Assembly: GCA_034401795.1 (NCBI GenBank)
Contig: CM067359.1
Coordinates: 145,768,233-145,832,232, forward strand
Length of the DNA: 64,000 bases
Direction of reading: 5' to 3'
DNA from: Chaetoderma sp. LZ-2023a
Lineage: Eukaryota > Mollusca > Caudofoveata > Chaetodermatida > Chaetodermatidae
Shown here: positions 5,751 to 59,287 of the stretch, piece by piece
How positions within the stretch are numbered: position 1 is the first letter of the stretch
How the letters are laid out: every line of letters begins with the position of its first letter
The notes under the pieces: model-generated
What the model was told of the DNA's origin: nothing
Database searches by the model: none
Seen by the model: the letters and a program-made list of their open reading frames with translations, nothing else
Position numbers and translations under genes: made by a program

Positions 5751-7152
5751 TTGTGGACAGCATCATTGGAAACTCTTCCGCAGGTTCATCGTAAAGTAAT
5801 CTACAAATGTGCCTGTCTGTTCAGTGGTGTTTCTACAAGCGCCACCGTCGACACCGGAGCTTCTATTACCGTTTTAACCAGCACTTGTATGAGAGCATCT
5901 CACCTCATAAAAAGCCCCCCACCCTTAAGCCTACAAATATTTACCTATAGACGGCTACGGGAGCAGATGTACCCGTGGCCGGTGTAGTTAATTTAGTTAT
6001 ACAGATAGAGGAAATGCAATTCATTCAGAGAGTTGTCATCGCCTCCATTCATAACGATTCCCTACTTGGCTCTGACTTTCTCAGTGCCAGCGAAGCCATC
6101 ATACACTGCAGACAACAGGAACTCGACATACACGGCCAGCGAATACCTCTCGGACCCGCATCATCGTTATACGATACGTGTGCAGTAATACTTTCAAGTA
6201 CTGCTACGATTGAGCCGGGACAGGAATGGATCGTATGGGCCACCGCACCACAGTTAGGAAGCAACACACACATTGCCATGCTGGAACCCGACCCTGATTA
6301 CATGATCGCCTCACAATGCGCAAGTCCCTGCATAATAGTAGACACTATGGATAAAGGGAAAATACCCTTTCGAATGTTCAATGGTACCGCAGATCCTATC
6401 ACTCTGGAACCCGGAGTACGCTGCGGCCATTTAGTGGACATAATTTCACTGGAAACAGTTACACTTTCTGATATGACACCACCGCTGACTGATGATTTAT
6501 ATCTGCGTGCCACTATTGGATTATTGCAATCACAAAAACACGAAATTCGGAAATTATTACATAAATATTGCGATAGTTTTTCCTCTGGAGATATGGATCT
6601 CAGAGAAACTCATCTTGTACGACACTCCCTCGATACCGGCAATAATCGCCCTGTGCGAAAACCGGTACGACATCTTCCCATTCACAAAGAAGTGGAAGCA
6701 CACCAACAAGTAAATGACATGTTGCGAACTGGTATTATCGCACCCTCAGCTTCTCCATGGGCTAGCCCTATAGTGCTAGCAGGCAAAAAGGACGGAACCG
6801 TGCAGTTTTGTATAGACTACCGCTGCCTTAATGATCTTAGCATTAAAGACGCTTATCCGTTGCCTTGGATTCCTTGTATGGAGTCAAGTGGTTTTGTACC
6901 CTTGATTTAGCTAGTGGTTACTGGCAAGAAGCCATGGATGAAGCTGATATGGAAAAGACGGCATTCCTTTGTTGAGACGGTCTTTTCCAATTCTGCAAAA
7001 TGCCCTACGGCTTGTGCAACGCTGCTGGAACTTTTGAACGACTCATTGAGCAGGTATTAACCACACTGCAATGGAAAATCTGTCTCTGTTACATCGATGA
7101 CGTCATTGTCTTCGGACCCTCGTTTGAGCAAACTTAAATCAATTTGGACACC
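5751..7152 (+). pseudogene. Gypsy protease and N-terminal half of reverse transcriptase, broken
   Basis: The aspartic protease active site DTGAS lies at about 5851-5865, with the flap and a LLGSDFL motif further on after a frame change near 5950. In the frame 5975-6910 the RT fingers follow: the ASPWASPIVLAGKKDGT motif, then FCIDYRCLND and KDAYPLP. A frame change near 6900 leads to a DLASGYWQ segment, a stop (TGA near 6973), KMPYGLCNAAGTF and the catalytic CYIDDVIVFG block at about 7084-7113. A TAA follows at 7135. The domain is cut by the insertion at 7152. Protease and RT are normally parts of one Pol polyprotein; this copy is inactive. Confidence 0.85.
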
Positions 7153-7586
7153 AGAGAGGGATAGGCTCCTCAAGGGGTGTCCAAAACAGGCAGCAGTGGG
7201 CCAGCAAGGGTCCGGGGGCACATGAAATCATTGATATAGTGCAGAGGAGAGTCTATTCGGCGTAATGTTCGGGCTACTGAGATTTTTGGTTCATCCTGTC
7301 CCAGCAAGTGGTCATACGTGGTACGTGGATGACAGTCCACACCCAGCGCACAAGTCTCTGCAATTACGTAGGGTTGTCGGAGGTGCTCTGCAGGCAAGGC
7401 CGGGAAAAGCGGTCAAAGTTCGTATACTGTTGGCAGATAGATACGGATCAGACCGTCGGTTGCCCCTGAGTGTGAGCTCAGATGGTGATCGCTATTGACT
7501 GGGTCGCCGGCCGGTCATCTTGATCATGTCAGTTCATCAATCCATTTCTGGTTATGAGTGGTCAAGATGGCTCAATGTACAGTCAG

Positions 7587-7733
7587 GCCATGTAGTCCAG
7601 TAAAACTACAAATTAACCTAGAACAAATTGCAACAGAATTTATTTCTTTTCTGCGGCATTCATGGGACTGCCAGGTGTCACATATTAAAAGTCCTCCAAA
7701 ATCCCTCGATGGGAAAGTGGGTAAATTCGCATA
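7587..7733 (+). repeat. Left inverted repeat of the PIN/CXC element
   Basis: This stretch matches the reverse complement of 12827-12979. The best block is gaacaaattgcaacagaatt, identical in both arms. Other shared blocks are CCAT(G)TAGTCCAGT at the outer edge, aaaagtcctccaaaat, and a gggaaag...gggtaaa segment at the inner edge. Arms are about 147 and 153 bp with small indels, so they are old but clear. Confidence 0.8.
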
Positions 7734-8065
7734 TTTAGCTACCGCCATTATCCGAATAATGAAACTTCCCTTACCTGCTTCATTCCGCAAATAAACGAAG
7801 TAGAAATGTTGTCTAAGCTCTGAATTTCATGGTCACGGAAGACAGTAAGCAATTGGCAATATTGCCTTGAACCACTTGTACAAATTCTCCAAACCACAGA
7901 TTAAATATGGTTGTATGCACAGGGCCGGGGTAATTTAAAAAAATTATATTTAAAGTAAGTTTAATTTTGTTTTTCGCTTTTAAAATTTTATCTAAAATAA
8001 ATTGCATTTTAATTTTCACTTTTATCTCACAATTTGAATAAATTTCTATACAATTCAATCAGAAT

Positions 8066-11000
8066 ATGGACATGGATTTAGATACATGCATTATTTGTAA
8101 CCAGAGCCTAGAAAATGGCTCACAAACTGTTAAGCTTCGAGTTAAAGGCTGTGACGGTATTAACAATGCTAGCAGAGCCCGTGAAAGCGATGTCATAGCT
8201 GAAGTAGGACAGAGGGTTCATGTAAAATGTCGATGGGAGTTCATTGATCCCAAGCGGATTGCCCGTGATGCAGAGAAAATTGAACAATCTCCGCCACCCA
8301 TGCGAACACTCCGTTCAGAAAGTCCAACATTCAATTTTAGTGAACATTGTTTGCTATGCGGATACCCTGCAAAAATTCAAGATGGAAAGAAACGTGGCTA
8401 TGATATTTATCCCGTAAGTACTCATGACTTTCAATGTAGTATCGCCGAGGCCTGTGAGCAGAGAAAAGACGAATGGAGCAAACTTGTAGCTGGGCGGCTT
8501 GCCTTCACGCCGGATTTATGCGTTGTCAATGCAGTATACCATCAAAGCTGCAGCGTAAATTTTTGAACCATGAAAAATATCCCTCAGCTGCACTCATCTT
8601 GCTCATCCCAAAAACATGGAAGGCCAGAAGACTTGGACAGAGTAAGAGCATTTAGTGCGACAATGGCATTTCTTGAAAATAATGATGATGAGCAGCTGAC
8701 CCTGCACGACCTCGTTAATAAAATGCAAGAGTATCTCGATGATAAAGAGAATAAAGCATACAGTACAAAATACATGCAGGATAAAATAAAAGATAATTAT
8801 GGCGATGAAATATTTATTAGCACTGTGAATGGTAAGCCAAACGTTGTTACCTTTCGTTCTAAAGCATCTACTATTTTGACTGACTTCTATAAGGAACAGA
8901 AGAGAAAGGATTCCAAATCAGAGAGCATGCTAATCATCCAGACAGCTGCCAAACTGCTTAGACACGATATTAAGTTAATTGATTCTTGCACATCATCTGA
9001 AAGCTATCCATCAAGGGAGCAAATGAGCGACCCAGTAAAGGCATTGAATTATTTACCAGAGACACTGCGGGAATTATTGCGGATTTTGTTTACTGGAAAA
9101 GACACAGAAATGAAACAGGCATCAGTTGGACAGGCTATTATGCAAGGAACTCGTCCTAGAGTTATTTTGGCACCTTTGCAGTTCGGGCTGGCATGTGAGA
9201 TGCACCATAAATTTGGATCTAGATTTATTGTTGACACCTTGTACAAGCACGGATTTGGATGTTCATACGTGGAGATACAGAGGTTTGAGCGCAGTGCATC
9301 ACTTCATGGTGGAGATCTACCACAGCCATTATCAGGCGAGTTCATTCAGTTTGTTGCCGACAATGTGGATCACAATGTTTGCACAATAGATGGGCATAAT
9401 ACATTTCATGGAATGGGAATCATTGCATCTGTTACACCAGGAAACCTTTCGTGCAAACTTATTCCAAGGATAAATGTAACATCTGAAGATATCAAGCAAG
9501 TTGGCAAGATCTGTATCAGGAACTTTGAGTCTCAGCATACCAGGAACTTCCCATTGCCCTTTAAGGAGTTAACTGCGATGGAACAAACAGACCCAACAGC
9601 TGACATTGACATCCTCTGGGATTTCTCTTTGTTTCTGCGTTCAAGGAGACAGTCATGGTCTGGCATGATGCAAACTGTTCACCAAGGAGTTTATCCAGGT
9701 AAATCGTCTGTTATTTTCCTTCCGATGATAGATCTAGAGCCAAGTAACATGACCTGCATCTTTTCCACTTTGACTTATGTTTGTGAACAGGCAAACCGAT
9801 ACCATGTTGCACCCGTGATTACATTTGATCAGCCCTTATTTTGGAAAGCTATGACTATCATAGAGATTGAGCCGAGCTGGAGTCCATTAAAGCAAATTAT
9901 TCTAAGACTCGGAGGTCTTCATATGGAGATTAGCTTCCTTGGCTGCATTGGTCACTTGATGGCAGGAAGCGGTCTTGCGCCTATTCTAGAGGTAGTCTAC
10001 GCTGAGAATGCTGTCAAACACATTCTTAGTGGAAAGGCAATTTCTCGAGCAGTTCGAGGACACCTCATGGTTTTTGCTTCTCTCAGTACAATCTTGATTG
10101 CAAATGCATACAACCTACCACTACCTACAATTGCAGATGCTGAAGTTGACACAGTAGAATATTCCGCTGCAATGCATTCAAAAGAATTGTTTGACAATGA
10201 TGATAATGTTGCAGGACATGAAACGATTGAAAGTTCCCTAAATAAAAGTCTGGTTAAAGTTGGAGAGCTCTATGATGACATTATCAAAAATCTGTATGTA
10301 GCTACAAGATTGTCTTCGGAAAATGCATTACATGATGTCAAGGACAAACTAGACTCAGAGAAGTTGGTCATGAAAGATAAGAGGACTGCACGACTCTGGC
10401 TTTTGTATATGGAGTTGGTTGACATTCTGCGCAAATTCATTAAGGCAGAACGAACTGGTGATTGGAACATGCACCTTCAGACCGTTCGTGAGATGCTTCC
10501 ATAGTTTGCAGCCGCTGGGCATAATCTGTACGCCAAGTCTGCATATGTATATTTACAAAAGATGTTAGAAATACCTGAAAGTCATCCAGATATACACACC
10601 AGCTTCCTCAATGGTCATCATGTCATTCATCGAAGTGATAGGTATTGGGCAGGGTTATCTACTGATCTAGTTATTGAGCAGGTCCTTATGAGAAGTGTAA
10701 AGTCAAGTGGTGGTCTAACACGAGGTCGTGGAATGACAGAACTTCAGCGTCTTGTTTGGTTGTTGTCTATGCCCGCATGTGCAGATGTGTGTAATGCAAT
10801 GCAAGAGCTCTCTGGGGTAAACTGTGATTCAAGTGAACAACACAAAGATTCCACACAATCTCGAATAAAGCGTGATATGGATGATACTTACAAAATTCTC
10901 AAAATCCTTAGTGAACTGAATCCATTTGGACCAGACCCTTCTCTTAGAGGACTTATTAGTGGATTGTCTGCACATGAATCAGTCAATGTTGACGATGCTA

Positions 11001-12517
11001 AATATATTGGAGAATCAATTATTAATTCGATGTGTGGCCAATGTGTATCAAGCATTTCGTTCCAGAGAAAGAGACAAGCTATTACATTAGCATCCAAAAC
11101 ATCTCTCAAGATTGATGATGAATGTGTACAAATTGATCCACAACTCCTATTTCAAAGACTCAGTTTAATTGCTACAAATGGATCAAAAGGGAATCCATCA
11201 TCTTATTTTGAGTATGAGTTGTGCACTCATCCGCCCGCACTCTTTGATAATTCATCTCTTCCATGGGAAGCAAATAAGCCAGCACTTGCTGATGCATTGT
11301 GGAAATTAATTCAAAATGAAGATGCAGTCCTTCCAGATTCTGTCCACTATGTGCTTGATGGAGGAGCTCTATTACACCGTGTTCCATGGCAGCGTGGAGA
11401 GACATTTGCAAATGTTTGTCAAAGATATGTAAAATATTGCATAAGCAAATATGGAAAGGCTACAGTAGTTTTTGATGGTTATGACCAAGGCCCAGACATA
11501 AAAGATGTAACACATAAGAGGCGAACTCGTGGATCAGGCGCAACTGTTGTACTAACTCCGCAAACAGTTGTAACTCTGAGTAAGCCTGATTTTCTTAGTA
11601 ACAAGCAGAACAAACATCGGTTCATATCAATCTTAAGTTCATCTCTCGAACAGGCTGGATGCTTAACGATAAAGGCAAGCCGTGATGCTGATGTCTTAAT
11701 TACGCAAACGGCTATCTTGGCTTCAAAGTCAACAAATCCTGCTCTTGTTGGAGATGATACCGACCTACTGGTGTTGCTTCTATACCATACTGATATGAAT
11801 AGCTGTCAGCTATTTTTCAGACCAGAGCCAAAGCAAAATGCAAAGAAACCCTGACTGTGGAATATCAAAATGGCAAAGGAAAAACTCGGGTTCTGTTTGT
11901 GCTCACAGCTGTTATTTATCCATGCTATCCTTGGCTGTGACGCAACATCTAGGCTTTATGGAATTGGAAAATCTGCATCCCTTAGCAAAATCCAGTGCTG
12001 CAAAGAACTCTCTCAAATTGCTGAAGTGTTTACAATGAGTAATGCGAATAAAGATGACGTGATAAAAGCAGGTGAGAAGGCAATGCTTATTCTATACAAT
12101 GGCACTTCAATGGATAGTCTAGTTGCTTTGCGGTACAAGCGATTCAGGGAGAAGGTTGCAAAAAGTTCCAAGTATGTTGAAGCACGAGATTTACCACCAA
12201 CACCCGCATCCGCAAAGTTTCAGTCTTCGCGTGTACTACCAATTCAAGTTTGGAGAGGAGATGCTGGAGATATGGATCCAACAGAATGGGGCTGGAAAGT
12301 TCTCAACCACCAAATGCTGCCTGTTAAGACTGACATGTTGGCAGCACCTGACGATTTACTGTATTCATTTAGATGCAGCTGCAAAACTGGCTGTGAATCA
12401 AAGAGATGCACCTGTAGAAAACATGGGCTCAGCTGCACATCCGCCTGCGAAGACTGTAAGGGTCTCAGTTGCTCGAATTCAATAACGCTCATTGAGGAAG
12501 ATGACTTGGATAATTGA
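8066..12517 (+). pseudogene. Large PIN/FEN-like nuclease plus CXC-domain protein, three in-frame stops
   Basis: One frame runs for 1,483 codons with no indel. It is broken only by TGA at 8564 (codon 167), TAG at 10502 (codon 813) and TGA at 11852 (codon 1263). The N-terminus has Cys/His pairs (CIIC at residues 8-11, a CGY near 100, YHQSC near 160). The middle (about 170-800) has conserved-looking blocks such as TIDGHNTFHGMG, ITFDQPLFWKA and SFLGCIGHLMAGSG. A FEN/PIN-like domain follows (about 1090-1260), with acidic positions at D1098 (LDGGALL), D1137 (FDGYD), D1207 (DADVLI) and D1230 (GDDTDLL). A Tesmin/TSO1-like CXC cysteine cluster lies near residues 1433-1470 (CSCKTGC...CTCRKHGL). I recall similar multi-copy proteins from cnidarians and molluscs, without an assigned function. 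Its place between inverted repeats suggests that it is the element's own protein. The start is the first Met of the frame and is uncertain. Confidence 0.7.
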
Positions 12518-12826
12518 TGCAAGATGAAATTAGTAGAAACCAGGTACCTATGCCATACTATTTCATCTTAGCTTAGCTTAGAAACACACAATACCGTGAC
12601 ATAATAAAATATAATATGTATTGTATCAATATCAATGATGGTATTAGGTAAATTCATGCAAGTGGCATAACACAATACATTTAATTTGTGGAGAATATGT
12701 CAATCGTATTCATTTATTACTAAAAAAGTCCAAAAATACCCAGTCACACATATATTACATACCGGTTTTAAAGAAATAAAGAAAAATGGATTTTTCAGGT
12801 GAAATGGCCCAAATCTGGTAATAATT
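12518..12826. other. A/T-rich 3' flank of the PIN/CXC frame
   Basis: This non-coding stretch lies between the stop and the right inverted repeat. It probably serves as the 3' UTR; A/T-rich and AATAAA-like strings occur (about 12600-12620 and 12773-12783). No second frame is present. Confidence 0.5.
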
Positions 12827-12979
12827 ATGCAAATTTTACCCTTTCCCCTATTGGAATTTTGGAGGACTTTTGATATGTTGTACATGATGGCCCCCTATAC
12901 ACTGGGCGAGGTAAAAAAATTCTGTTGCAATTTGTTCCGGGTTAAAATATTTTTGGCCTAGATTGACTGGACTAATGGC
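12827..12979 (-). repeat. Right inverted repeat of the PIN/CXC element
   Basis: This is the reverse-complement partner of 7587-7733, including the exact block aattctgttgcaatttgttc and the outer ggactaatggc edge. Together the arms define an inner element of about 5.4 kb. I see no convincing target-site duplication directly outside these arms. Confidence 0.8.
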
Positions 12980-13495
12980 AAGCATTCGTATTGCGAGTCA
13001 TGTCTCCTGTGATCAGAGGTCATGAAAAGTGATTCTTTTGGAAGCAGGAGGGTATGTGTGTGAGACGGTGTAACCTGTCACTTGTCAGACGGGTGGAGCA
13101 GTCTGGTGCCCAGGTACCCGTGGGGTGGATGATCTGTCTAAGTATGATCTGCACAGGGCCTCTCAGCTAAAATGACGTCAAAGTACGATCTACATGAGGG
13201 CCTTAGCTGCAATGCATCTAGCGGACATCACCTCTGTGGTATGGTCTATGCGGGCCTATGGCCCCTTGCCAAGATGACCCTATTGGCGCCCAGCACTGTG
13301 TTCGCTCGGCTCGGGAGTCGTCAGTGTGCATCTTGACTCTGTCCCGGATTATGGCCCCATAACTTGGACAGTTCTTTATCTCAGGCATATACGGAAAGGT
13401 ACCTAGCCTAGGCTGCATCCTGTGCGGGGAACTGGGCGTCCATCCGGCGTGGCGGAAACAGTGAACCACACCGGGAAGGCCAAAGGGTACAAGTG

Positions 13496-14090
13496 ACCGT
13501 GCTTTCCTGTTTCCGCACAGCCAATTTGAAACCCAAACCAAAGAAATGTCATCTCTTCAGACAGAGCGTCGAGTTCTTGGGACACGTCATATCCGGCGAT
13601 GGAGTGACTACACAGCCATCGAAGACTAAGGCAGTAGCAGAGTGGCCACGGCCCTCTTTAGTTACGGAGACATGTAGTTTCCTTGGCCTATGCCAGTACT
13701 ATCGACATTTCAGCGAGATTGCTTCACCCCTCCACAATATCACCGAGAAAGATCGCCCATTTGAGTGGACGAGTGAGTGTGAAGGCTCCTTCAAGGCGCT
13801 GAAGGAACTCTTGACGACCGCCCTGATTCTTGCTCACCCTAATCCAAACCTCGATTTCATCTTAGACACTGATGCATCAGCTTTCGCTATCGGCGCAGTT
13901 CTATCACAGGTCACCGAAGACAGAACAGAGCAGGTATTGGGTTATGGTTCGCATACTCTGAATAAAACGGAGAAAATATAGGCAAAACACCAAGCGAGAT
14001 TTATTGGCGGCGGTCCCTTTTGTCAAGTATTATAAACACTTCCTGTACGGGCGCCCCACTCTTCTCGAAGCTCTTGGAAAGACTCTATTA
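13496..14090 (+). pseudogene. Gypsy RT C-terminus and start of RNase H
   Basis: This is the continuation of the Gypsy element after the insertion. It reads RT thumb (KPKPKKCHLFRQSVEFLGHV, then GLCQYYRHF) and the RNase H beginning with LDTDASAFAIGAVLSQ. Stop codons follow at 13979 and later, and a 5'-truncated LINE cuts it near 14090. Integrase and the 3' LTR are absent from this place. The order and motifs match Ty3/Gypsy Pol. Confidence 0.85.
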
Positions 14091-15312
14091 TAACAGGCTA
14101 AACAATTACTTAAATGAAAACTCTATTCTTTACCAGTCATAATACGGTTTTCAGGAAAAACACTCCACAATGTTAGCTCTTATAGATATGATGGAAAAGA
14201 TAATAAATACATTGGACTAAAAAGAACATATTCTTGGAATTTTTTATAGATTTATCTAAAGCATTCGATACAATAGACCATAACATTTTAATAGAAAAAT
14301 TCAAACTACAGAATACGAGGCATTGCACTGGACTGGATAAAAAGCTACCTACCCAGTAGAACACAATATGTCCAGTATAATAGAGTCCTATCTAAGAGTG
14401 GAGAAATAGTCTGTGGTGTTCCTCAGGGTTCAATTCTTGGCCCGCTCTTGTTCTTACTCTATATGAATGACCTACCAAATGTTTGCAAACACTTGCCATT
14501 AATTCTCTTTGCAGACGATACCAATGCTTTTTGCAGCCATAAAAACATTGACACGTTATACACAAACATAAATGAAGAAATAGAAAAAGTAATTCATTGG
14601 TTTAAGGTTAACAAATTATCGCTCAATGCTGCAAAAACAAATTACATCTTATTCACAAGTAAAAAAATGAAAAGTACTGATCTCCCTAAAATTTATGTAG
14701 ATAATCAAGAAATACGTGAAGCACAATTTGCAAAATTCTTAGCTGTCTATTTGGACAAGAAACTCACATGGGAGAAACATATACAAATTGTAACGTCAAA
14801 GGTTGCAAAGAACATTGGTATTATGCGTCAACTAAAAAGCTACTTACCAAAGCACCTTATAAAAACGCTATATAGCACGTTAATATTACCGCAAATCACA
14901 TACTGCAACACTATTTGGACTAACACTTACTCATCAAAACTAAAAAAATTAAAGACACTTCAGAAAAATGCTATAAAGATATTTTCACAACCAACAGCGG
15001 GTCAAAATGTTTTAAAAATAATAAAACTATTGAAGCTTGAAGATATAGAAAACTATACTCCGTCCTCAGAGACTTCTATAACAATAATTTACCAACCCCA
15101 TTATTAAACCTCTTCAAGAATAATGAAGACATACACTCACACAACAAACGATCATGAAAAAATCTGCATACAACCTTCTGCCGCACAGAAGCCTCCAGAC
15201 AAAATCCATCAACAAAAGCAATACACCTATGGAACAACACAGAAACAGACATCCGCTCACAGATTATCACCAAAAAATCATACAAAAAGAAACTCAAGAC
15301 AATTATTATAGA
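14091..15312 (+). pseudogene. LINE reverse transcriptase, truncated and frameshifted
   Basis: The coding part begins at the RT fingers (NRLNNYLNENSILYQS, then an YGF-KKHST segment) and changes frame near 14150 and 14270. The longest open piece (14448-15107, 219 aa) holds the catalytic FADDT motif (LILFADDTNAF), then WFKVNKLSLNAAKTNYILF and a thumb/connection with LPQITYCNTIWTNTY. After another frame change, a typical C-terminal tail (HLWNNTETDIRSQIITKKSY) ends near 15312. The pattern is that of Jockey/CR1-like LINEs. No endonuclease domain remains, so it cannot move by itself. Confidence 0.8.
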
Positions 15313-20885: not shown

Positions 20886-21550
20886 AGCCAGGCAATTGAT
20901 AGCAACAGGATCTGAGTTTCCCAGCAGGAAACCACCTGCTCAGAGCATCAGTGTGCATGCCAACATGGGCGATGCGCCAAAATAAACTGGTAACTCTGTA
21001 TGGTTTACTGCCAGCATGCTATTTGCCCCTTTGGGGTGTTTGTTTCTCTTTGATTCACGTGATGTATGATCAATGCACAATTTGAATTCTCTACCATGAT
21101 GATGATATACTGTGTTCTGTGGCTGCAGTGGTTTTGAAACATCCTGCAACTGCAATTAGTTCTTCTATTGTCACTGTTTCTTGTCCTCAGTGAGTCCTTC
21201 CCTCCATTTTCTTCTCGGTCGTCAGTGTAACCAGTCCGGCTTCTTTTTAGATTGGTATATAGCACACTAAACGAAATCTAGGATTTCTTTTTTCACGAGA
21301 GAGTTGATACTTACCTCCCTAATACTTTTGATATTGCTAAATATTGGCTTTCACTCAATAAACACTCAGATTTAAAACAGTTAGGTGCCCCTACTGGGCA
21401 GGGAGTCAGAGCGTAGTCTGGCGGATGCCAGCCCCACCACCGCGCATGCGCAGACTAGCACTTCCTCTGACTAGATTATTGGCTGACACACATGCAACTA
21501 TTAAGAGCCTGAAGACCGAGCCTCTGTGGGGTGGAGAGGCCGGGTCCGTA

Positions 21551-21652
21551 TCTAGGGAGGTAAGTATCAACTCTCTCGTGAAAAAAGAAATCCTAGATTT
21601 CGTTTATTTCACTTCAAGAGTATACTTACCTCCCTAATACTTTTGATATTGC
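21551..21652. repeat. DIRS-A internal complementary region (joined element ends)
   Basis: Read on the plus strand, this segment is the element's 3' end (...GATTTCGTTTA, ending at 21606) directly followed by its 5' end (TTTCACTTCAAGAG from 21607). It therefore equals the junction of a circularised element, but placed in inverse orientation inside the element. This is the known DIRS1 internal complementary region, thought to serve as template when ends are joined during replication. Confidence 0.85.
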
Positions 21653-22184
21653 CAGAATTCGAAAGTGAATCTGGCGGGAGGGAGGCGAGGTCAAAAGACC
21701 AGCTCATCCCTATACGCTTTTCTGCGTTTAAGGCACTTAAACTTCTGAAACTGTAAGAAAAAACAGTCAGGATTTGACTAACCATCGGATAACACCACCG
21801 ATGTATGAGAAATGACCGAATGTCATATGCGCTCCCCCCCCCTCCTTCCAGGGAGGAAGAGTCGACTGACCTCAATGTCCTATACGCTCTCTACGTACAA
21901 GTGCCATGTACTACAGGACAGAGACGAAAAAGCTCCATTTTCGTAACTCTCAACAATGAACCACACAAATACACAAACCATCACCATATTAATAACGGGT
22001 AATCGTGACAATACAATCAACAACGGACAACACATGAACAAGACTGACCTTGTTGAAAGGGCTGGTGACATCATCTTCCCATTGGTAAAGACTGATGCAG
22101 GCCCAAAAAAGTGGGTGTTTCCATAAATTAATTGTGAAATATATAAGTAATGAGGAAAAACCACCTCAAAAAATATAAACCGAT

Positions 22185-23318
22185 TTATTTTTTCAAAACC
22201 GACAAGGCGAGAGGATTAGAGGTGTCACGGAGATAATGGTCTGTAAAACTTGACTCACAGTGCCACTGAGCCACCGACATAATATCATCCACAGGGACCC
22301 CATTAAATAGGGCCGTGGATGTCACTACGCCGCGGACACTGTGAGCCTTGGCCACGTCAACCTGCTTCCCGGTGGCGGATTTATGGCAAAACTGAATGCA
22401 TTCCACAATCCACCTGGAAATGGTGTCCTTAGAAGCCCTCCCATGGGGTTCAATATATGACAACCATAACGCTGACTGGTCGGTGCGCCATGCCGCCGTA
22501 CGTTGTTTGTACCGGCGCAGCGCCCGGACGGGACACCATGCTTTAGAATTAGGATCATATCTAGTTAAAGCAGGCAAAATAATAGGTTGACCTGGATATT
22601 TCAACGACTGATTTTTAGCCAAGAAATTAATCCTAGGTAGCAGCTTAAGGCCTTCCCCTGAAACCACAAAACGGTCATCCTCGGCTGATAAGGCATGAAT
22701 CTCACTCCTACGCCTAGCCGAGGCCGCAGCAATTAAAAACACAGTCTTCAGTGTTAATAGTTTCATAGAAATGGAACTAAGTGGTTCAAAAGGCTTATCA
22801 CCTAGTACTTGAAGCACTAGCGATAAACTCCAAGACGGAATCACAGGTGGATTCCTTGGTCTTAGATTGCCCATGCCTTTAATTAATACATTCAATGTAT
22901 TTACTTCATCACTTCCCCTCTTAGCCAAGCAAGGAATAACAGACATTAATGCTGACTTATAACCAGCAATAGAGTTAGGCTTGAGGCTATAGGCATCATA
23001 GAGGTGACAGAGGAAATCAGCTACTACTTGAATAGATGAATCCATTGGATCAATACATCTTTTTGAGCACCATTCTGCAAATCTGTTGATTTTATAATTA
23101 TATGCTCTGGAGGTTGACCCCCTCCTGGCTTTGGCCATAAACATGGCTGCTTGCTCAGAAAAGCCCTCCTTAATTCTAGATTCCTTGACAACATCCACGC
23201 AGTCAATCTGAACATTGACGGATTGTTGTGAAGGGCCTTGCCCTGGAAGATAATATCGTCCATCAGAGGCAGAGGAACCGGATTGCAGACCAGAAGGTCC
23301 AGCAGATCCGTATACCAT
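22185..23318 (-). CDS. DIRS-A tyrosine recombinase
   Basis: This is a site-specific recombinase that integrates circular DIRS DNA. Counting from the Met at 23318 it has 377 residues. An N-terminal SAM-like core-binding part (KARRGSTSRAYNYKINRFA) is followed by the catalytic domain: Arg in SARRRSEIHAL (about 204), His-x-x-Arg in AHSVRGVV (326 and 329) and Tyr in FTDHYLRD (362). All four key residues are present. The frame is open far upstream (to 25406), so the true start is uncertain; the N-terminal part overlaps the end of the RT frame by about 295 nt, as in DIRS1. Confidence 0.85.
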   Translation of the reverse strand: MVYGSAGPSGLQSGSSASDGRYYLPGQGPSQQSVNVQIDCVDVVKESRIKEGFSEQAAMFMAKARRGSTSRAYNYKINRFAEWCSKRCIDPMDSSIQVVADFLCHLYDAYSLKPNSIAGYKSALMSVIPCLAKRGSDEVNTLNVLIKGMGNLRPRNPPVIPSWSLSLVLQVLGDKPFEPLSSISMKLLTLKTVFLIAAASARRRSEIHALSAEDDRFVVSGEGLKLLPRINFLAKNQSLKYPGQPIILPALTRYDPNSKAWCPVRALRRYKQRTAAWRTDQSALWLSYIEPHGRASKDTISRWIVECIQFCHKSATGKQVDVAKAHSVRGVVTSTALFNGVPVDDIMSVAQWHCESSFTDHYLRDTSNPLALSVLKK

Positions 23319-25406
23319 GATCGGCTTGGCCAATCCGGGGCGATCAGAAGCACTTGGCATTCCTCTTGTCTGATTTTCTGAAGAATTTTTGGAATCAGGA
23401 TTGCTGGAGGGAATGCGTATGCATACATTCTCCCCCAGCTGATAGCTAACGCATCTGTTGCGAAAGCGCTTGGATCCGGAATCGGAGAGACGTACGTCGT
23501 CATCTTCGCATTCTTCTTCGTTGCGAACAAATCGATGTTGGGTTTCCCCCAATGGTCGAACAGACGATCCGCCACACATTGATTTAGTTGCCATTCCGTG
23601 GGTAAAACACTCATCCTTCGGCTCAATGAGTCTGCTAGCAGGTTTAACCTTCCCGGAATATGAACTGCTTTCAAGGTAATCTGGTGATCCAGACACCAAC
23701 AAAGCAGTTTCCATGTCATCATACAGAGACTGGGCGACTTCGTTCCGCCCTGGCGGTTTATGTAAGTCACAACTGTTGAGTTGTCTGAACGAATAAGAAC
23801 AATCTTGCCCTGAACTTTCTGTAAGAAATGTTCCAGGCCCAGGACTACTGCTCTTAGCTCCAGTAGATTTATATGTTCCTTTGACTGTTCCAGATTCCAA
23901 AGCCCTGATATCGTGGATTCTTCCAGGCAAGCTCCCCAGCCCTCCATCGATGCATCTGTATACACAGTCACCTGAGGGTGGGGAGGGGTTAGCAAAACCC
24001 CCGGTAAGAGATTCTCTGTATTCAACCACCATTGCAGGTGGTGAATCAGAGGCGCCAACACTGACACATTCGAGTCCAGCGAACCTGTACTCTGGGTCCA
24101 TTGTGTCATGAGAAACAACTGGATCGGCCGCCTGCGTAAGGCGGCCTGAGGAATGACTGGTTCCAACGAAACCATCAACCCCAGCATTCTCAAGTAAACC
24201 CGTGCCAGGACATGACGACTGTCCCACACTGACTGAATCAATGAGATGAGTTTCTGAACTCTCTCCTGAGTAGGATAAACATATCCTGTCTCTAGATCGA
24301 AGAACATCCCCAGGTAAACAAACTTCTGGGATGGAGTCAGCTCTGATTTTGGGAAATTGATCATCCAGCCCAAGCCTGTGAGAGTTTTCAAAACAACCTC
24401 CAGATTGGCGGACAAACTTTCCCGGGTGTGCGCTTTCAACAGCCAGTCGTCTATGTACGTGTGGACTGCTATGCTTCTCCTGCGGAGGTATGCTGTGATC
24501 GCAAGAACCACACGGGTGAAAAACCCGAGGAGCCGTGGAAATTCCGAAGGGCAACACCCTGAATTCCCACTGTCTGCCCTGGAATGCAAATCTCAGGAAG
24601 CGACAGAAACTCCTGTGGATGGGGATGTGGAAATAAGCGTCCTTCAAATCTATCGACGCCGTCCACATCCCCCTCTCCAACCCCGCCAACACCGAGCGCA
24701 CCGTTTCCATCTTGAAACTGGGCGTCTCGATGAACTTGTTCAATGGCTTGAGGTTGAGAATCGGTCTCCACCCTCCGGTGCGTTTTGTTACTAAGAACAG
24801 GGTTGAATAGAAGCCCGGACACCTTTGTGCCGGCTGAATAGCTCCCTTTTGTATGAGGGAATTTATCTCCTCCTCGATACACAACCTTTGCTCTGGATCT
24901 CTCGGAATGGGAGTCCAGACTGGCACCAGAGACAGTCGCGACGGCGGGCCTGTCACCCACTCTGGATGATACCCGACGGAAAGCCATCGCAAGACTAAAC
25001 GGTCCTGAGTTAACCGTTCCCACTCTTGCATGTGGTCGGCTAGCCGGCCTCCCACCGGTCCACCTAGGGACCGCGGTGGACACGAGGCATGCAAGAGCGG
25101 CACTGTCTCCGTCGCCATACACACCGGAGTGGTTCTTACCGCGGTAAGCGTCCTGTCAGGACCGATAACCACGCCCAGATCCTCGCGCGCCCCGCCCCGC
25201 CCCGCGCGCACCTCGGTGCGCGGGCGGCTGCCTGGCTGACGGCGCCTGAGGAACCTGCGCCCCCCTCGCTGCTGGCCGAATCGCACGCGGCCGAGGCCGA
25301 CGCTGCGACGGTGGCTGGCCTCTGACCTGGCCAGCACCACCTCGAGCCTGCAGGGGACGATACGCCGGGGCCGCGGCGCGAACGTTAGCACGACGCAGCA
25401 CATCAA
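23024..25406 (-). pseudogene. DIRS-A RT-RNase H-MT polyprotein, one frameshift
   Basis: The N-terminal RT part (IEEEINSLIQKGAIQPA, then ASIDLKDAYFHIPI and LPFGISTAPRVF) is in the frame that starts at 25406. At a run of five A near 24519, where DIRS-C has four, the frame shifts. The rest (TYIDDWLLKA, RNase H with VYTDASMEGWGA, the RSDNSTVV motif and LLADSLSR, then the methyltransferase-like domain with NIDLFATKKN and AYAFPPAILI) lies in the frame 23024-24589. It is otherwise intact. The single-base change makes this copy defective unless it is a sequencing error in a homopolymer. Confidence 0.85.
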
Positions 25407-27285
25407 ACTGCTCGCGCAGCGCCCTCTGGTTATTCACCAGGGTGACCGTCTCCTGGAGGTGGCGACATCCCTCACCTCCAAAAAGACCAGGGCCCGTCAT
25501 AGGCGTACGTAGTAGCCTATTGTACAGGTCCTGAGACGGGCACAGATTGTCCAGGGCAAACGTGCGTCTTGCCCGGACACTCCTGGTCACCGCCCGAGTC
25601 ATACAGTCCAGCGCCAGGTTAATACCATCCTGGATGGTTCGCTGGACAGTGACCGGACTTGGCTGGCGCGATGCGGATGCCGTTACTACCCCCTGTAACA
25701 GCTGGGAGACGTGGGACAGAGCGGCAATCGAAGCCCTCCCACTCTCCTCCGCATCACGCAACGCGGTATTCGCCGAACGCAACGCGTTCGAGCACAAGAC
25801 ACCCGTGTCAGAACGGGAGCCTGGCCGCGCATCCTCACCCAAAGCTGCGCGGTCATCCACGCTGGGCTTGGGTACCACACCGTACCGCTGGTAATCCAGG
25901 GGCACGATGCGACAACGCCTGGCCACCTCGCGAGGGGCCTTCGCGAGACGTCCACTCGACTTAATGGACGACTCCGCCGCCTTGAACATGTCAACGACAT
26001 GCTCCGCCAGCGGCAGAGAAGGCATAGCGTTAGCAGTCGGTTTCCCAGCTAACCACGGCGTGTGAACACGCTGGCTAGCCGACTGCTCCACGGGCAGATC
26101 AGGCCTAACGCTCACCAACCACTGGCAAGCGTCATACCAATCCTCCTCCGTGGCTAACTGCGAGCGCTCTACAAGACGGGGTCCTTCGTCTTCCTCCTGA
26201 GCGCAAGCAGTAGAGCTTGACAGCGGGTATGCTGATACACCTGGCAAGCCAGGGAAAACACGCGGGCCTGACAGCACCGGCATGAGAATATCACTGGTTT
26301 GACCAGGAGCAGGCACCGTGGCAGAGCGCGGGGTATATATAGTCTCACCACGGGCCTGGCCAGCACCAGCAACACCCTCGGCAAGCCGAGGTATGCGGTA
26401 CCGCTGGCCATCAGCAGCGCCCTGGGCCACCACCTGAGCCGCGGACCTTACTCCAGGGTGAGTAAAACCGTGGAATAAGGCGCCTGTATTCCCCGCGAGG
26501 GGTGCACAAACGTCTTCATCCATGTCCACGTCGTCAGACGGCGACCCTAGCAGGTAATCCTCATCACCCTGGTCAGAAAGATTAGACCCCGGGTCAGCAA
26601 AGAGAGCTAACCCGGGCTGACCAGGAACGGTGCCATAGGAGGTACTGGCCACCGCGGCGTGCGGATACCCCTGGACTGATAAGCAGCCCGCGGGTTCCAG
26701 CGACAACCGTCCACGGTCCCCTATCGGCGCGGCAATAAGCCTGCTGCCAGGGCCGTGGAACGCCCCCTCTAATGGGGCCACCTCTGAATCGTCGAACAAC
26801 GGAAGCGGACTAAGGAAAATCGATCCAGAGGCGGGGATTACCTGCTCCGAAGCCGATGATGAGGACAGTAAAGGATTTGGTCCAGGAAGCATGCCACGAA
26901 GCAACCCTGGAACCAAATCCTTTATTGTCCTCTTCATCTCTCCCAACATCTCGGTCCGGAAGGCCTCCATATCCACCGCGGACGAGACCTTCCCCTTACC
27001 CTTCCTACTTACAACCTCTCGTTTCCGCTTCTTCTTCTTCTCCTCCTCTACCACCTTGTCCGTCGCCTGTAAGCAGCACAAGAATTCGGACATTAACTCG
27101 CCCCCCCAGTGCTTACATATGTCACAATTAACCAAGGGACCACAAGGGCTACATCGATAGCACAGATGAGGCCAGAACTTTTCATGAAGAAAACGTCCAC
27201 AGGACGCGCAACCCGGTCCCTGAAACAGGGCAAAGGACAAGGAGTATGAGCAACTAGTTAAGCTTAGAAACTCAATCCAACTCAA
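25156..27285 (-). CDS. DIRS-A Gag-like protein (ORF1, 709 aa)
   Basis: This is the first frame of the element. The N-terminus has three Cys pairs (CASCGRF, then CYRCSPC and CDICKHW) that could bind zinc. A Lys/Arg cluster follows (KKKKRKREVV, about residue 80), then an acidic, Ser/Pro-rich middle, an alpha-helical C-terminal half and an Arg/Gly-rich tail (RGARGAGRGARGSGRGYRS). The order fits a structural RNA-binding protein of DIRS elements. Its role is inferred from position; the family's Gag proteins diverge fast. Its 3' end overlaps the RT frame by about 250 nt. Confidence 0.8.
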   Translation of the reverse strand: MSWIEFLSLTSCSYSLSFALFQGPGCASCGRFLHEKFWPHLCYRCSPCGPLVNCDICKHWGGELMSEFLCCLQATDKVVEEEKKKKRKREVVSRKGKGKVSSAVDMEAFRTEMLGEMKRTIKDLVPGLLRGMLPGPNPLLSSSSASEQVIPASGSIFLSPLPLFDDSEVAPLEGAFHGPGSRLIAAPIGDRGRLSLEPAGCLSVQGYPHAAVASTSYGTVPGQPGLALFADPGSNLSDQGDEDYLLGSPSDDVDMDEDVCAPLAGNTGALFHGFTHPGVRSAAQVVAQGAADGQRYRIPRLAEGVAGAGQARGETIYTPRSATVPAPGQTSDILMPVLSGPRVFPGLPGVSAYPLSSSTACAQEEDEGPRLVERSQLATEEDWYDACQWLVSVRPDLPVEQSASQRVHTPWLAGKPTANAMPSLPLAEHVVDMFKAAESSIKSSGRLAKAPREVARRCRIVPLDYQRYGVVPKPSVDDRAALGEDARPGSRSDTGVLCSNALRSANTALRDAEESGRASIAALSHVSQLLQGVVTASASRQPSPVTVQRTIQDGINLALDCMTRAVTRSVRARRTFALDNLCPSQDLYNRLLRTPMTGPGLFGGEGCRHLQETVTLVNNQRALREQFDVLRRANVRAAAPAYRPLQARGGAGQVRGQPPSQRRPRPRAIRPAARGAQVPQAPSARQPPAHRGARGAGRGARGSGRGYRS

Positions 27286-28129
27286 AGAGAAGGAAAACGA
27301 TCATAAAGATCAATATACATCAGAAACCAGCATAGCGCTTGAATTGCTGATAAACACATAGCCAGGCTGATTATGACGTCATTAATCCTGTGACAGGAAA
27401 AATCGATCCCAACAAAACATCCAAGTGCAAGGACGAATTGTATGCTGAATGGATAAGTCGACTACACAACCATCAGATACATATAGATAACTCTTTTCTG
27501 GCAAAAATGTTAATTATCTCCCTTTGTTTGTTTACAATAATTAACATCACCACATTATCAATAACTAGATACCTGACACTTTGTATAGACAAACCATCCA
27601 ACGTGACGAACCGGAGAACTCCACCATCTGCACGCCTCTTAACTCTCTCCACCTCATGGGGAAGGAATTGGATCAAGAGGGCAAAGTGAGAAGACCTTTA
27701 TACTAGGCCTCCAACTCACTGGACATATTTTTTCATTTGGTTAGATAACCTAACAGTGTTAGTAGGAAATGGAACCATGGTGGAGAGAAAACTAACTCTC
27801 TGCTACTGTGATGTCACCACCTAGCGTCATACAGACCTGTGGACATAAACAGAAAGAGAAATTAGCCCTAGGTAGCACCGAGTTGACATAAACCAACTAA
27901 CCAAGGCGCTTATCACGGTAAACGCGAGTCCCGGAAACACAATACACCGGGAAGAAAACTCGCTAATTTTACTAGAAGTCACCTGATTTAAAGGTCCTAA
28001 GTCCTCCTGTGGCGAAGTGTTCCCTCCTGCCATACAAATCAGATACTATCACTCCAAAATATACACCAATTAACAGTTAAAGAGCAAGAAAAGCTTATGA
28101 CTAAAAAAAACACGTGTGTTCTCTTTGCC

Positions 28130-28319
28130 AATAATCTAGCAAAGAGGTAGTGCTAGTCTGCGCATGCGCGGTGGTGGGGCTGGCATCCGCCAGACTACGC
28201 TCTGACTCCCTGCCCAGTAGGGGCACCTAACTGTTTTAAATCTGAGTGTTTATTGAGTGAAAGCCAATATTTAGCAATATCAAAAGTATTAGGGAGGTAG
28301 GTATACTCTTGAAGTGAAA
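28130..28319 (-). repeat. DIRS-A 5' inverted terminal repeat
   Basis: On the minus strand it begins TTTCACTTCAAGAGTATAC and continues with the same sequence as the inner part of the other end (21300-21490). It includes a CGCGCATGCGCAG palindromic segment. The outermost bases of the two ends differ, as in DIRS1. Confidence 0.85.
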
Positions 28320-32163: not shown

Positions 32164-32445
32164 TAAACGAAATCTAGGATTTCTTTTTTCACGAGAGAGT
32201 TGATACTTACCTCCCTAATACTTTTGATATTGCTAAATATTCGCTTTCACTCAATAAACACTCAGATTAAAACAGTTAGGCGCCCCTAGTGGGCAGGGAG
32301 TCAGAGCGTAGTCTGGCGGATGCCAGCCCCACCACCGCGCATGCGCAGACTAGCACTTCCTCTGACTAGATTATTGGCTGACACACATGCAACTATTAAG
32401 AGCCTGAAGACCGAGCCTCTGTGGGGTGGAGAGGCCGGGTCCGTA

Positions 32446-32547
32446 TCTAGGGAGGTAAGTATCAACTCTCTCGTGAAAAAAGAAATCCTAGATTTCGTTT
32501 ATTTCACTTCAAGAGTATACTTACCTCCCTAATACTTTTGATATTGC
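32446..32547. repeat. DIRS-C internal complementary region
   Basis: Contains the joined ends GATTTCGTTTA/TTTCACTTCAAG with the junction at 32501/32502, on the strand opposite to the coding strand. Identical in design to that of DIRS-A. Confidence 0.85.
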
Positions 32548-33078
32548 CAGAATTCGAAAGTGAATCTGGCGGGAGGGAGGCGAGGTCAAAAGACCAGCTC
32601 ATCCCAATACGCTTTTCTGCGTTTAAGGCACTTAAACTTCTGAAACTGTAAGAAAAAACAGTCAGGATTTGACTAACCATCGGATAACACGACCGATGTA
32701 TGAGAGATGACCGAATGTCATATGCGCTCCCCCCCCCTCCTTCCTGGGAGGAAGAGTCGACTGACCTCAATGTCCTATACGCTCTCTACGTACAAGTGCC
32801 ATGTACTACAGGACAGAGACGAAAAAGCTCCATTTTCGTAACTCTCAACAATGAACCACACAAATACACAAACCATCACCATATTAATAACGGGTAATCG
32901 TGACAATACAATCAACAACGGACAACACATGAACAAGACTGACCTTGTTGAAAATGGCTGCTGACATCATCTTCCCATCGGTAAAGACTGATGCAGGCCC
33001 AAAAAAGTGGGTGTTTCCATAAATTAATTGTGATATATATAAGTAATGAGGAAATCACCTCAAAAAATATAAACCGAT

Positions 33079-34212
33079 TTATTTTTTCAAAACCGACAAG
33101 GCGAGAGGATTAGAGGTGTCACGGAGATAATGGTCTGTAAAACTTGACTCACAGTGCCACTGAGCCACCGACATAATATCATCCACAGGGACCCCATTAA
33201 ATAGGGCCGTGGATGTCACTACGCCGCGGACACTGTGAGCCTTGGCCACGTCAACCTGCTTCCCAGTGGCGGATTTATGGCAAAACTGAATGCATTCCAC
33301 AATCCACCTGGAAATGGTGTCCTTAGAAGCCCTCCCATGGGGTTCAATATATGACAACCATAACGCTGACTGGTCGGTGCGCCATGCCGCCGTACGTTGT
33401 TTGTACCGGCGCAGCGCCCGGACGGGACACCATGCTTTAGAATTAGGATCATATCTAGTTAAAGCAGGCAAAATAATAGGTTGACCTGGATATTTCAACG
33501 ACTGATTTTTAGCCAAGAAATTAATCCTAGGTAGCAGCTTAAGGCCTTCCCCTGAAACCACAAAACGGTCATCCTCGGCTGATAAGGCATGAATCTCACT
33601 CCTACGCCTAGCCGAGGCCGCAGCAATTAAAAACACAGTCTTCAGTGTTAATAGTTTCATAGAAATGGAACTAAGTGGTTCAAAAGGCTTATCACCTAGT
33701 ACTTGAAGCACTAGCGATAAACTCCAAGACGGAATCACAGGAGGATTCCTTGGTCTTAGATTGCCCATGCCTTTAATTAATACATTCAATGTATTTACTT
33801 CATCACTTCCCCTCTTAGCCAAGCAAGGAATAACAGACATTAAAGCTGACTTATAACCAGCAATAGAGTTAGGCTTGAGGCTATAGGCATCATAGAGGTG
33901 ACAGAGGAAATCAGCTACTACTTGAATAGATGAATCCATTGGATCAATACATCTTTTTGAGCACCATTCTGCAAATCTGTTGATTTTATAATTATATGCT
34001 CTGGAGGTTGACCCCCTCCTGGCTTTGGCCATAAACATGGCTGCTTGCTCAGAAAAGCCCTCCTTAATTCTAGATTCCTTGACAACATCCACGCAGTCAA
34101 TCTGAACATTGACGGATTGTTGTGAAGGGCCTTGCCCTGGAAGATAATATCGTCCATCAGAGGCAGAGGAACCGGATTGCAGACCAGAAGGTCCAGCAGA
34201 TCCGTATACCAT
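33079..34212 (-). CDS. DIRS-C tyrosine recombinase
   Basis: Counting from the Met at 34212 it has 377 residues. The frame itself is open from 36015, overlapping the whole RT frame. Catalytic Arg (SARRRSEIHAL, about 204), His-x-x-Arg (HSVRG, 326/329) and the Tyr nucleophile (DHYLRD, 362) are all present. It differs from the DIRS-A protein at very few positions. It should cut and join the circular DNA intermediate at a short shared sequence. Start site and mode of expression (internal start or frameshift) cannot be decided from the sequence. Confidence 0.87.
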   Translation of the reverse strand: MVYGSAGPSGLQSGSSASDGRYYLPGQGPSQQSVNVQIDCVDVVKESRIKEGFSEQAAMFMAKARRGSTSRAYNYKINRFAEWCSKRCIDPMDSSIQVVADFLCHLYDAYSLKPNSIAGYKSALMSVIPCLAKRGSDEVNTLNVLIKGMGNLRPRNPPVIPSWSLSLVLQVLGDKPFEPLSSISMKLLTLKTVFLIAAASARRRSEIHALSAEDDRFVVSGEGLKLLPRINFLAKNQSLKYPGQPIILPALTRYDPNSKAWCPVRALRRYKQRTAAWRTDQSALWLSYIEPHGRASKDTISRWIVECIQFCHKSATGKQVDVAKAHSVRGVVTSTALFNGVPVDDIMSVAQWHCESSFTDHYLRDTSNPLALSVLKK

Positions 34213-36104
34213 GATCGGCCTGGCCAATCCGGGGCGATCAGAAGCACTTGGCATTCCTCTTGTCTGATTTTCTGAAGAATTTTTGGAATCAGGATTGCTG
34301 GAGGGAATGCGTATGCATACATTCTCCCCCAGCTGATAGCTAACGCATCTGTTGCGAAAGCGCTTGGATCCGGAATCGGAGAGACGTACGTCGTCATCTT
34401 CGCATTCTTCTTCGTTGCGAACAAATCGATGTTGGGTTTCCCCCAATGGTCGAACAGACGATCCGCCACACATTGATTTAGTTGCCATTCCGTGGGTAAA
34501 ACACTCATCCTTCGGCTCAATGAGTCTGCAAGCAGGTTTAACCTTCCCGGAATATGAACTGCTTTCAAGGTAATCTGGTGATCCAGACACCAACATAGCA
34601 GTTTCCATGTCATCATACAGAGACTGGGCGACTTCGTTCCGCCCTGGCGGTTTATGTAAGTCACAACTGTTGAGTTGTCTGAACGAATAAGAACAATCTT
34701 GCCCTGAACTTTCTGTAAGAAATGTTCCAGGCCCAGGACTACTGCTCTTAGCTCCAGTAGATTTATATGTTCCTGTGACTGTTCCAGATTCCAAAGCCCT
34801 GATATCGTGGATTCTTCCAGGCAAGCTCCCCAGCCCTCCATCGATGCATCTGTATACACAGTCACCTGAGGGTGGGGAGGGGTTAGCAAAACCCCCGGTA
34901 AGAGATTCTCTGTATTCAACCACCATTGCAGGTGGTGAATCAGAGGCGCCAACACTGACACATTCGAGTCCAGCGAACCTGTACTCTGGGTCCATTGTGT
35001 CATGAGAAACAACTGGATCGGCCGCCTGCGTAAGGCGGCCTGAGGAATGACTGGTTCCAACGAAACCATCAACCCCAGCATTCTCAAGTAAACCCGTGCC
35101 AGGACATGACGACTGTCGCACACTGACTGAATCAACGAGATGAGTATTTGAACCCTCTCCTGAGTAGGATAAACATATCCTGTCTCCAGATCGAAGAACA
35201 TCCCCAGGTAAACAAACTTCTGGGATGGAGTCAGCTCTGATTTTGGGAAATTGATCATCCAGCCCAAGTCTGTGAGAATTTTCAAAACAATCTCCAGATT
35301 GGCGGACAAACTTTCCCGGGTGTGCGCTTTCAACAGCCAGTCGTCTATGTACGTGTGGACTGCTATGCTTCTCCTGCGGAGGTATGCTGTGATCGCAAGA
35401 ACCACACGGGTGAAAACCCGAGGAGCCGTGGAAATTCCGAAGGGCAACACCCTGAATTCCCACTGTCTGCCCTGGAATGCAAATCTCAGGAAGCGACAGA
35501 AACTCCTGTGGATGGGGATGTGGAAATAAGCGTCCTTCAAATCTATCGACGCCGTCCACATCCCCCTCTCCAACCCCGCCAACACCGAGCGCACCGTTTC
35601 CATCTTGAAACTGGGCGTCTCGATGAACTTGTTCAATGGCTTGAGGTTGAGAATCGGTCTCCACCCACCGGTGCGTTTTGTTACCAAGAACAGGGTTGAA
35701 TAGAAGCCCGGACACCTTTGTGCCGGCTGAATAGCTCCTTTTTGTACGAGGGAATTTATCTCCTCCTCGATACACAACCTTTGATCTGGATCTCTCGGAA
35801 CGGGAGTCCAGATTGGCACCAGAGACAGTCGCGACGGCGGGCCTGTCATCCACTCTGGATGATACCCCACGGAAAGCCATCGCAAGACTAAACGGTCCTG
35901 AGTTAACCGTTCCCACTCTTGCATGTGGTCGGCTAGCCGGCCTCCCACCGGTCCACCTAGGGACCGCGGTGGACACAAGGCATGCAAGAGCGGCACTGTC
36001 TCCGTCGCCATACACACCGGCGTGGTCCTTACCGCGGTAAGCGCCCTGTCAGGAACGATAACCACGCCCAGATCCTCGCGCGACCCGCCCCGCCCCGCGC
36101 GCAC
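33918..36104 (-). CDS. DIRS-C RT-RNase H-methyltransferase-like polyprotein (728 aa)
   Basis: The reverse transcriptase occupies about residues 100-300: KGAIQPAQRCPGFYSTLFLV, then SIDLKDAYF (about 186-194), PFGISTAPRVF and the catalytic YIDD at 252-255. RNase H follows at about 413-532 with Asp in YTDAS (419), Glu in LLELRA (451), Asp in RSDNS (476) and Asp in LLADSLSR (527). A methyltransferase-like domain typical of DIRS follows at about 556-650 (NIDLFATKKN, then SWGRMYAYAFPPA and IAPDWPGRSW). All catalytic residues of RT and RNase H are intact. The frame overlaps Gag upstream and the recombinase downstream. The exact start is uncertain. Confidence 0.9.
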   Translation of the reverse strand: MRAGRGGSREDLGVVIVPDRALTAVRTTPVCMATETVPLLHALCPPRSLGGPVGGRLADHMQEWERLTQDRLVLRWLSVGYHPEWMTGPPSRLSLVPIWTPVPRDPDQRLCIEEEINSLVQKGAIQPAQRCPGFYSTLFLVTKRTGGWRPILNLKPLNKFIETPSFKMETVRSVLAGLERGMWTASIDLKDAYFHIPIHRSFCRFLRFAFQGRQWEFRVLPFGISTAPRVFTRVVLAITAYLRRRSIAVHTYIDDWLLKAHTRESLSANLEIVLKILTDLGWMINFPKSELTPSQKFVYLGMFFDLETGYVYPTQERVQILISLIQSVCDSRHVLARVYLRMLGLMVSLEPVIPQAALRRRPIQLFLMTQWTQSTGSLDSNVSVLAPLIHHLQWWLNTENLLPGVLLTPPHPQVTVYTDASMEGWGACLEESTISGLWNLEQSQEHINLLELRAVVLGLEHFLQKVQGKIVLIRSDNSTVVTYINRQGGTKSPSLCMMTWKLLCWCLDHQITLKAVHIPGRLNLLADSLSRRMSVLPTEWQLNQCVADRLFDHWGKPNIDLFATKKNAKMTTYVSPIPDPSAFATDALAISWGRMYAYAFPPAILIPKILQKIRQEECQVLLIAPDWPGRSWYTDLLDLLVCNPVPLPLMDDIIFQGKALHNNPSMFRLTAWMLSRNLELRRAFLSKQPCLWPKPGGGQPPEHIIIKSTDLQNGAQKDVLIQWIHLFK

Positions 36105-38175: not shown

Positions 38176-39017
38176 GGAGAAGGAAAACGATCATAAAGAT
38201 CAATATACATCAAAAACCAGCCTAGCGCTTGAATTGCTAATAAATACATAGCCAGCTGATTATGACGTCCTTAATCCCGTGACAGGAAAAATTCGATCCC
38301 AACAAAACATCCAAGTGCAAAGACGAATTGTATGCTGAATGGATAAGTTGACTACACAACCATCAGATACATATAGATAACTCTTTACTGGCAAAAATGT
38401 TAATTATCTCCCTTTGATTGTTTACAATAATTAACATCACCACATTATCAATAACTAGATACCTGACACTTTGTATAGACAAACCATCCAACGTGACGAA
38501 CCGGAAACTCCACCATCTGCACGCCTCTTAACTCTCTCCACCTCATGGGGAAGGAATTGGAACAAGAGGGCAAAGTGAGAAGACCTTTATACCAGGCCTC
38601 CAACTCACTGGGCATAATTTATCATTTGGTTAGATAACCTAACAGTGTTAGTAGGAAATGGAACCATGGTGGAGAGAATACTAATTCTCTGGTACTGTGA
38701 CGTCACAAACTAGCGTCATACAGACCTGTGGACAGAAACAGAAAGAGAAATTAGTCCTAGGTAGCACCGAGTTGACCTAAACCAACTAACTAAGGCGCTT
38801 ATCACGGTAAACGCGAGTCCCGGAAACACAATACACCGGGAAGAAAACTCGCTAATTTTACTAGAAGTCACCTGATTTAAAGGTCCTCCGTCCTCCTGTG
38901 GCGACGTATTCCTATCCGCCATCCAAAAAAGTGACTAACACTCCAAACAAACACCACTTAAACAGTTTAAGAGAGCGAAAAAGCTATTGAACAAAAAAAC
39001 ATGTGTGATCTCTTTGC

Positions 39018-41800: not shown

Positions 41801-41809
41801 GTAATCACC

Positions 41810-59231: not shown

Positions 59232-59287
59232 AACTGGGTATTTTAAATATATGAATTTCGTGCCAAGACAACCTAATAGCTATGAAG

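Follow-up and report, generated by a model that had tools for sequence, protein, structure and literature searches.

A degenerate DNA transposon, very probably of the nuclease-bearing AcademX lineage, nested within a Gypsy element of the mollusc Chaetoderma

Introduction

In the Academ superfamily of DNA transposons, the transposases have a nuclease of the XPG type and a zinc finger of the Cys8 type. One lineage of the superfamily is AcademX, for which PMC10045372 cites Kojima 2020, Mob DNA 11:15. As given in the relevant excerpt of PMC10045372, AcademX elements generate target duplications of 3 or 4 bp and AcademH elements of 9 or 10 bp, which seems connected with the helicase and the nuclease that these elements encode and implies a nuclease for AcademX. 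Academ is named among the superfamilies with a DDD/E transposase in an excerpt of PMC9587614, and a RecQ helicase is mentioned for Academ in a passage of PMC3627910. Among molluscs, the relevant section of PMC10294476 presents Academ as almost bivalve-only, and its curated bivalve library holds 100 Academ elements with a mean length of 5,565 bp.

Here, we describe an element from Chaetoderma sp. LZ-2023a (Mollusca, Caudofoveata), found in a 64,000-nucleotide stretch of DNA, hereafter the window (GenBank assembly GCA_034401795.1, contig CM067359.1, positions 145,768,233 to 145,832,232, forward strand). It is very probably a degenerate DNA transposon of the cut-and-paste type that belongs to Academ and, within it, to the nuclease-bearing lineage AcademX, a placement made from published descriptions.

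Results

Profile searches found a Gypsy reverse transcriptase split between positions 162 and 164 of the RVT_1 profile (at about 163). The left piece (7018-7134) matches RVT_1 127-162 (E = 0.01) and the right piece (13412-13978) matches RVT_1 164-205 (E = 0.0022), both below the curated cut-off, and the right piece also matches RT_RNaseH_2 (E = 4.1e-22). ACC flanks the inserted 6,343 bp on either side, at 7150-7152 and 13496-13498. An earlier sequence-only reading had recognised this 6.34-kb segment inside the Gypsy reverse transcriptase, and RVT_1 is indeed interrupted at that place, with ACC at both junctions. That reading also proposed inverted repeats of about 150 bp, which we found, and took all of 7153-13495 for the transposon, which we did not: the inverted repeats bound 7593-12974 (Table 1), and what remains appears to be a second insert whose two parts share no detectable repeats.

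Both inverted arms start with TAGTCCAGT at their outer ends. They are about 150 bp long, imperfect and 70% identical, with an alignment score of 135. When one arm was shuffled base by base 200 times, no score exceeded 44, and 3000 random pairs drawn within the first 20 kb, without overlapping pairs, scored no higher than 61. Because the arms begin at 7593 and finish at 12974, with ATG on each side, we delimit the element at 5,382 bp. The ATG pair is an apparent 3-bp target duplication, read, like the ends, from one copy, and a flanking match of this length arises by chance about once in 64. GCCAT adjoining both ends also pairs in the inverted sense, which would make the unoccupied site palindromic at these borders, so the transposon could extend outward by another 5 bp and would then lack a duplication.

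Table 1. Features of the transposon and of the insert around it (window positions; residues numbered along the coding frame).
Feature	Position	Strand	Basis and remarks
Outer insert, left part	7153..7592	.	440 bp; G+C 0.525 (measured from 7157); includes the target ATG at its inner end
Target duplication ATG, left copy	7590..7592	.	sequence
Transposon, very probably Academ-type, 5,382 bp	7593..12974	+	terminal inverted repeats and flanking ATG/ATG
Left terminal inverted repeat	7593..7737	+	begins TAGTCCAGT; aligned with right arm
42-bp direct repeat, two copies, 5' leader of transposon	7940..8024	+	repeat search
One-protein frame, 1,483 codons and final stop, three in-frame stops	8066..12517	+	translation, alignment
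N-terminal region, paired Cys/His, presumed zinc-binding	8066..8563	+	C8, C11, H52, C55; C95, C98, H159, C162
Probable DDE transposase core, D435 to E871, with D588 and H619	9368..10678	+	conservation; catalytic role inferred
Putative FEN1/EXO1/XPG-type nuclease, D1098 to D1292	11357..11941	+	with D1137, D1207, D1209, D1231, D1233
CXC domain, nine Cys, C1437-C1469	12374..12472	+	all nine in 108/116 relatives
Right terminal inverted repeat	12822..12974	-	ends ACTGGACTA on + strand
Target duplication ATG, right copy	12975..12977	.	sequence
Outer insert, right part	12978..13495	.	518 bp; G+C 0.539

The two outer parts total 958 bp. Because they share no repeat above shuffled sequence and have a higher G+C content than the arms, we read them as an earlier, separate insert that received the transposon and is apparently unrelated to it; the likely order of events is Gypsy, then the outer insert, then the transposon. 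A 107-aa minus-strand frame at 13221-13541 gave no Pfam match. ACC at both Gypsy junctions, with RVT_1 interrupted exactly there, would also suit a single transposon spanning the whole of 7153-13495, in which ACC is the duplication and the inverted arms are internal. This is very unlikely, however, given that the outer parts score 51 (inverted) and 58 (direct) against a shuffle maximum of 66 (200 shuffles of the inverted case, the stretches compared taking in some Gypsy flank), that their G+C is about 0.53 as opposed to 0.38 in the arms, that the inner arms have an ATG/ATG of their own, and that the contig of an intact relative (P0239, below) is listed at 5,412 bp, which falls short of the 6,343 bp of the whole segment.

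Within the window the arms match each other only, and no second copy of the nested transposon was found there; a pattern built on its ends recovered the two exact ends and four matches with 2-3 mismatches, where 2.0 were expected. Scans of genome contigs and viral contigs, collections that may lack records close to the genome from which the window comes, returned no relative. The terminal-repeat core pattern had 0 matches in the viral contigs, and its matches in two bacterial contigs (L001 and L002) were dismissed as chance, with only 21-22-bp word matches (E below 0.01). Rfam gave 0 matches.

Other repeats share the window. Related stretches at 21268-28319, 32164-39207, 39229-44977 and 45979-50256 come from a reverse-transcriptase element, presumably DIRS-like, with a weak integrase SAM-like match, and two of them are 97% identical over 7 kb. 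A reverse transcriptase fragment at 14295-15107 (RVT_1, E = 6.6e-15) is presumably of the non-LTR type. At 56683-59232 a 50-bp unit is repeated in tandem, in 51 copies with 97% matches, and a frame at 60663-61319, which has no Pfam match, carries a motif from which we take it to be the end of a Penelope-like reverse transcriptase.

The transposon holds a single plus-strand frame, as the sequence-only reading had it with its one 4.45-kb frame, but the frame is not open: stops interrupt it at residues 167, 813 and 1263. An intact relative, P0239, has 1,484 aa and is 98% identical, differing at 24 of 1,483 positions, three of which are the stops and four of which fall in a short divergent stretch (residues 1386-1392) where the window frame is apparently shifted relative to the intact protein. 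P0239 is listed on a JGI contig whose length is close to that of our element. The window copy is slightly decayed and can no longer yield the full protein. NCBIfam gave 0 matches, and the two hits in PHROGs, both weak (near E = 0.01), are to families whose function is not known. Most of the protein is without a Pfam model, the exceptions being weak matches to DUF6589 and CXC.

Protein searches for relatives returned 631, 647 and 340 matches in overlapping sets. The frame was aligned with 116 of the 120 relatives listed from the 340, hence with the closest and longest (P0003, P0118, P0126 and P0132 were left out), and the D-D-E residues, seven nuclease acids and nine CXC cysteines are jointly present, all exact, in 106 of these 116. 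The named relatives include the sponge Dysidea avara, whose lineage was checked, together with what we take to be bivalves, gastropods, corals, an anemone, a sea urchin, a sea cucumber, a sea spider, a fish and a hagfish. For some species several non-identical relatives are named, such as P0053, P0071 and P0208 in Mytilus edulis and P0187, P0188 and P0213 in Nymphon striatum. Some bear no annotation beyond that of an uncharacterised or a Tesmin/TSO1-like CXC protein, and annotation as an ordinary protein in several genomes is what one would expect of a host gene family that had been passively copied and here lies between unrelated inverted repeats. We consider this barely credible, since the family is patchy over distant animals with several members within species, and since the frame is located inside another inserted sequence with inverted termini 473 and 457 bp away from it. 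A DNA transposon encoding a PIN/FEN-type nuclease and a CXC domain would, as the sequence-only reading had suggested, explain the copy number of these proteins in cnidarians and molluscs.

The N-terminal Cys/His region and the CXC domain, both identified by that reading, were confirmed: each N-terminal ligand is kept in 99-114 of the 116 aligned relatives, the remainder being nearly all gaps. Among 60 members, 3 matched Pfam preSET_CXC weakly (best E = 0.028). The nine-Cys CXC domain may correspond to the Cys8 zinc finger of Academ transposases.

In the center of the protein, D435, D588, H619 and E871 are each present in all 116 aligned relatives, with 241-373 residues (median 278) separating D588 from E871; hAT transposases likewise carry a long helical stretch between these D and E residues. 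On the strength of residue conservation and superfamily placement, we regard the central core as a probable DDE transposase. A core profile of 50 sequences had 0 matches in PDB at E = 10, and one of 87 sequences hit no solved transposase and a single unrelated entry (E = 0.19). Over the stretch before E871, the window protein resembles DUF6589 (PF20231), a family whose function is unnamed, weakly and under the curated cut-off (E = 0.0012, 18.1 bits), while the relative P0032 exceeds it (30.5 vs 27 bits). DUF6589 matched 6 of 50 members (best E = 2e-07), a rate biased by the inclusion of P0032, P0181 and P0189 as known matches, and 4 of 60 in a second set (best E = 0.002). DUF6589 matches, precomputed or found here, occur in P0032, P0181, P0189 and P0256. 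The DUF6589 family may thus be a transposase core; no paper mentioning it was found in our literature search.

FEN1/EXO1/XPG nucleases have seven catalytic carboxylates in order, and an acid stands at all seven corresponding positions of the C-terminal nuclease region in 113 of 116 relatives. Searched against PDB, nuclease profiles of 83 and 60 sequences, selected from the set of 647 matches, retrieved three distinct sequences within the limit of E = 10, each named Exonuclease 1 (best E = 0.015 and 0.01, respectively; range 0.01 to 0.25). By hand count, D1137, D1207, D1209, D1231, D1233 and D1292 align with Exonuclease 1 chain positions 78, 150, 152, 171, 173 and 225, which we take to be catalytic, and a G-C-D...G-I-G segment is likewise in register; the seventh acid, D1098, is upstream of the aligned stretch. 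Two relatives (P0288 and P0308) bear the JGI name 5'-3' exonuclease. Unlike other nucleases of this type, the domain shares its protein with a CXC domain and a transposase-like core and lacks a Pfam XPG match: no Pfam nuclease model matched the window, and none matched a set of 60 members up to E = 0.05. The comparison points to a nuclease of the FEN1/EXO1/XPG type, weakly by E-value and strongly by register. A PIN domain of no particular kind was ruled out, as the profiles find Exonuclease 1 with the acids in register. Of the acidic motifs listed in the sequence-only reading, D1098, D1137 and D1207 hold, D1230 gives way to the conserved D1231 and D1233, and D1209 and D1292 complete the seven.

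The element fits AcademX because it combines a probable transposase and a nuclease with a duplication in the 3-4-bp range. It shares with that lineage the nuclease, the 3-bp duplication (in the one copy read), inverted termini, a probable DDE core and a length of about 5.4 kb, and no structural difference was found, the likeness being known by description. At 5,382 bp it is close to the 5,565-bp mean of the bivalve library, as reported in the section of PMC10294476 on these elements; its named relatives, in contrast to the almost bivalve-only picture of that section, include gastropods and other phyla. AcademH belongs to the same superfamily, but the duplications of 9-10 bp given for it in the excerpt of PMC10045372 differ from the 3 bp seen here. 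Pfam searches with pieces of the window and with 8 relatives gave no helicase match, in contrast to the helicase-bearing AcademH.

Discussion

The sequence-only reading held the element to be undescribed and outside any named superfamily. This was probably wrong, since nuclease, duplication length and size fit Academ and AcademX, and the element is most likely a clean example of an already named Academ kind, not a new class. A superfamily not yet named, resembling AcademX only by its nuclease and 3-bp duplication, is unlikely. In its favor, the likeness to AcademX is known by description and not by comparison with a reference sequence, Pfam has no model for most of the protein, and our literature search found no paper treating Academ, XPG, transposase and superfamily together. 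Against it stand the XPG-type nuclease and the Cys8 finger of Academ transposases; our search found no paper that states these two features. The agreement of nuclease, duplication length and element size with what the excerpts of PMC10045372 and PMC10294476 say of AcademX and Academ also opposes it, as does the likely DDE-type core, Academ being a DDD/E superfamily in the excerpt of PMC9587614. It is quite unlikely that the element represents a superfamily apart from Academ, with a DDE core that is related to DUF6589 and fused both to a CXC domain and to a flap nuclease of the FEN/EXO1 type, where the nuclease itself would set the short duplication.

For an AcademX-type element of this anatomy, we propose that the CXC domain and the presumed zinc-binding Cys/His pairs of the N terminus would hold the transposon ends, that the central D-D-E core would cut and join DNA, and that the FEN/EXO1-type domain would trim the 5' flaps there, in keeping with so short a duplication. 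This scheme is drawn from anatomy and conservation. The conserved D435, D588 and E871, together with the seven acids, offer a way to test what the nuclease does when an Academ element transposes. The near-identical intact copy suggests recent activity, and, if our reading is true, hundreds of related predicted proteins would be transposon proteins.
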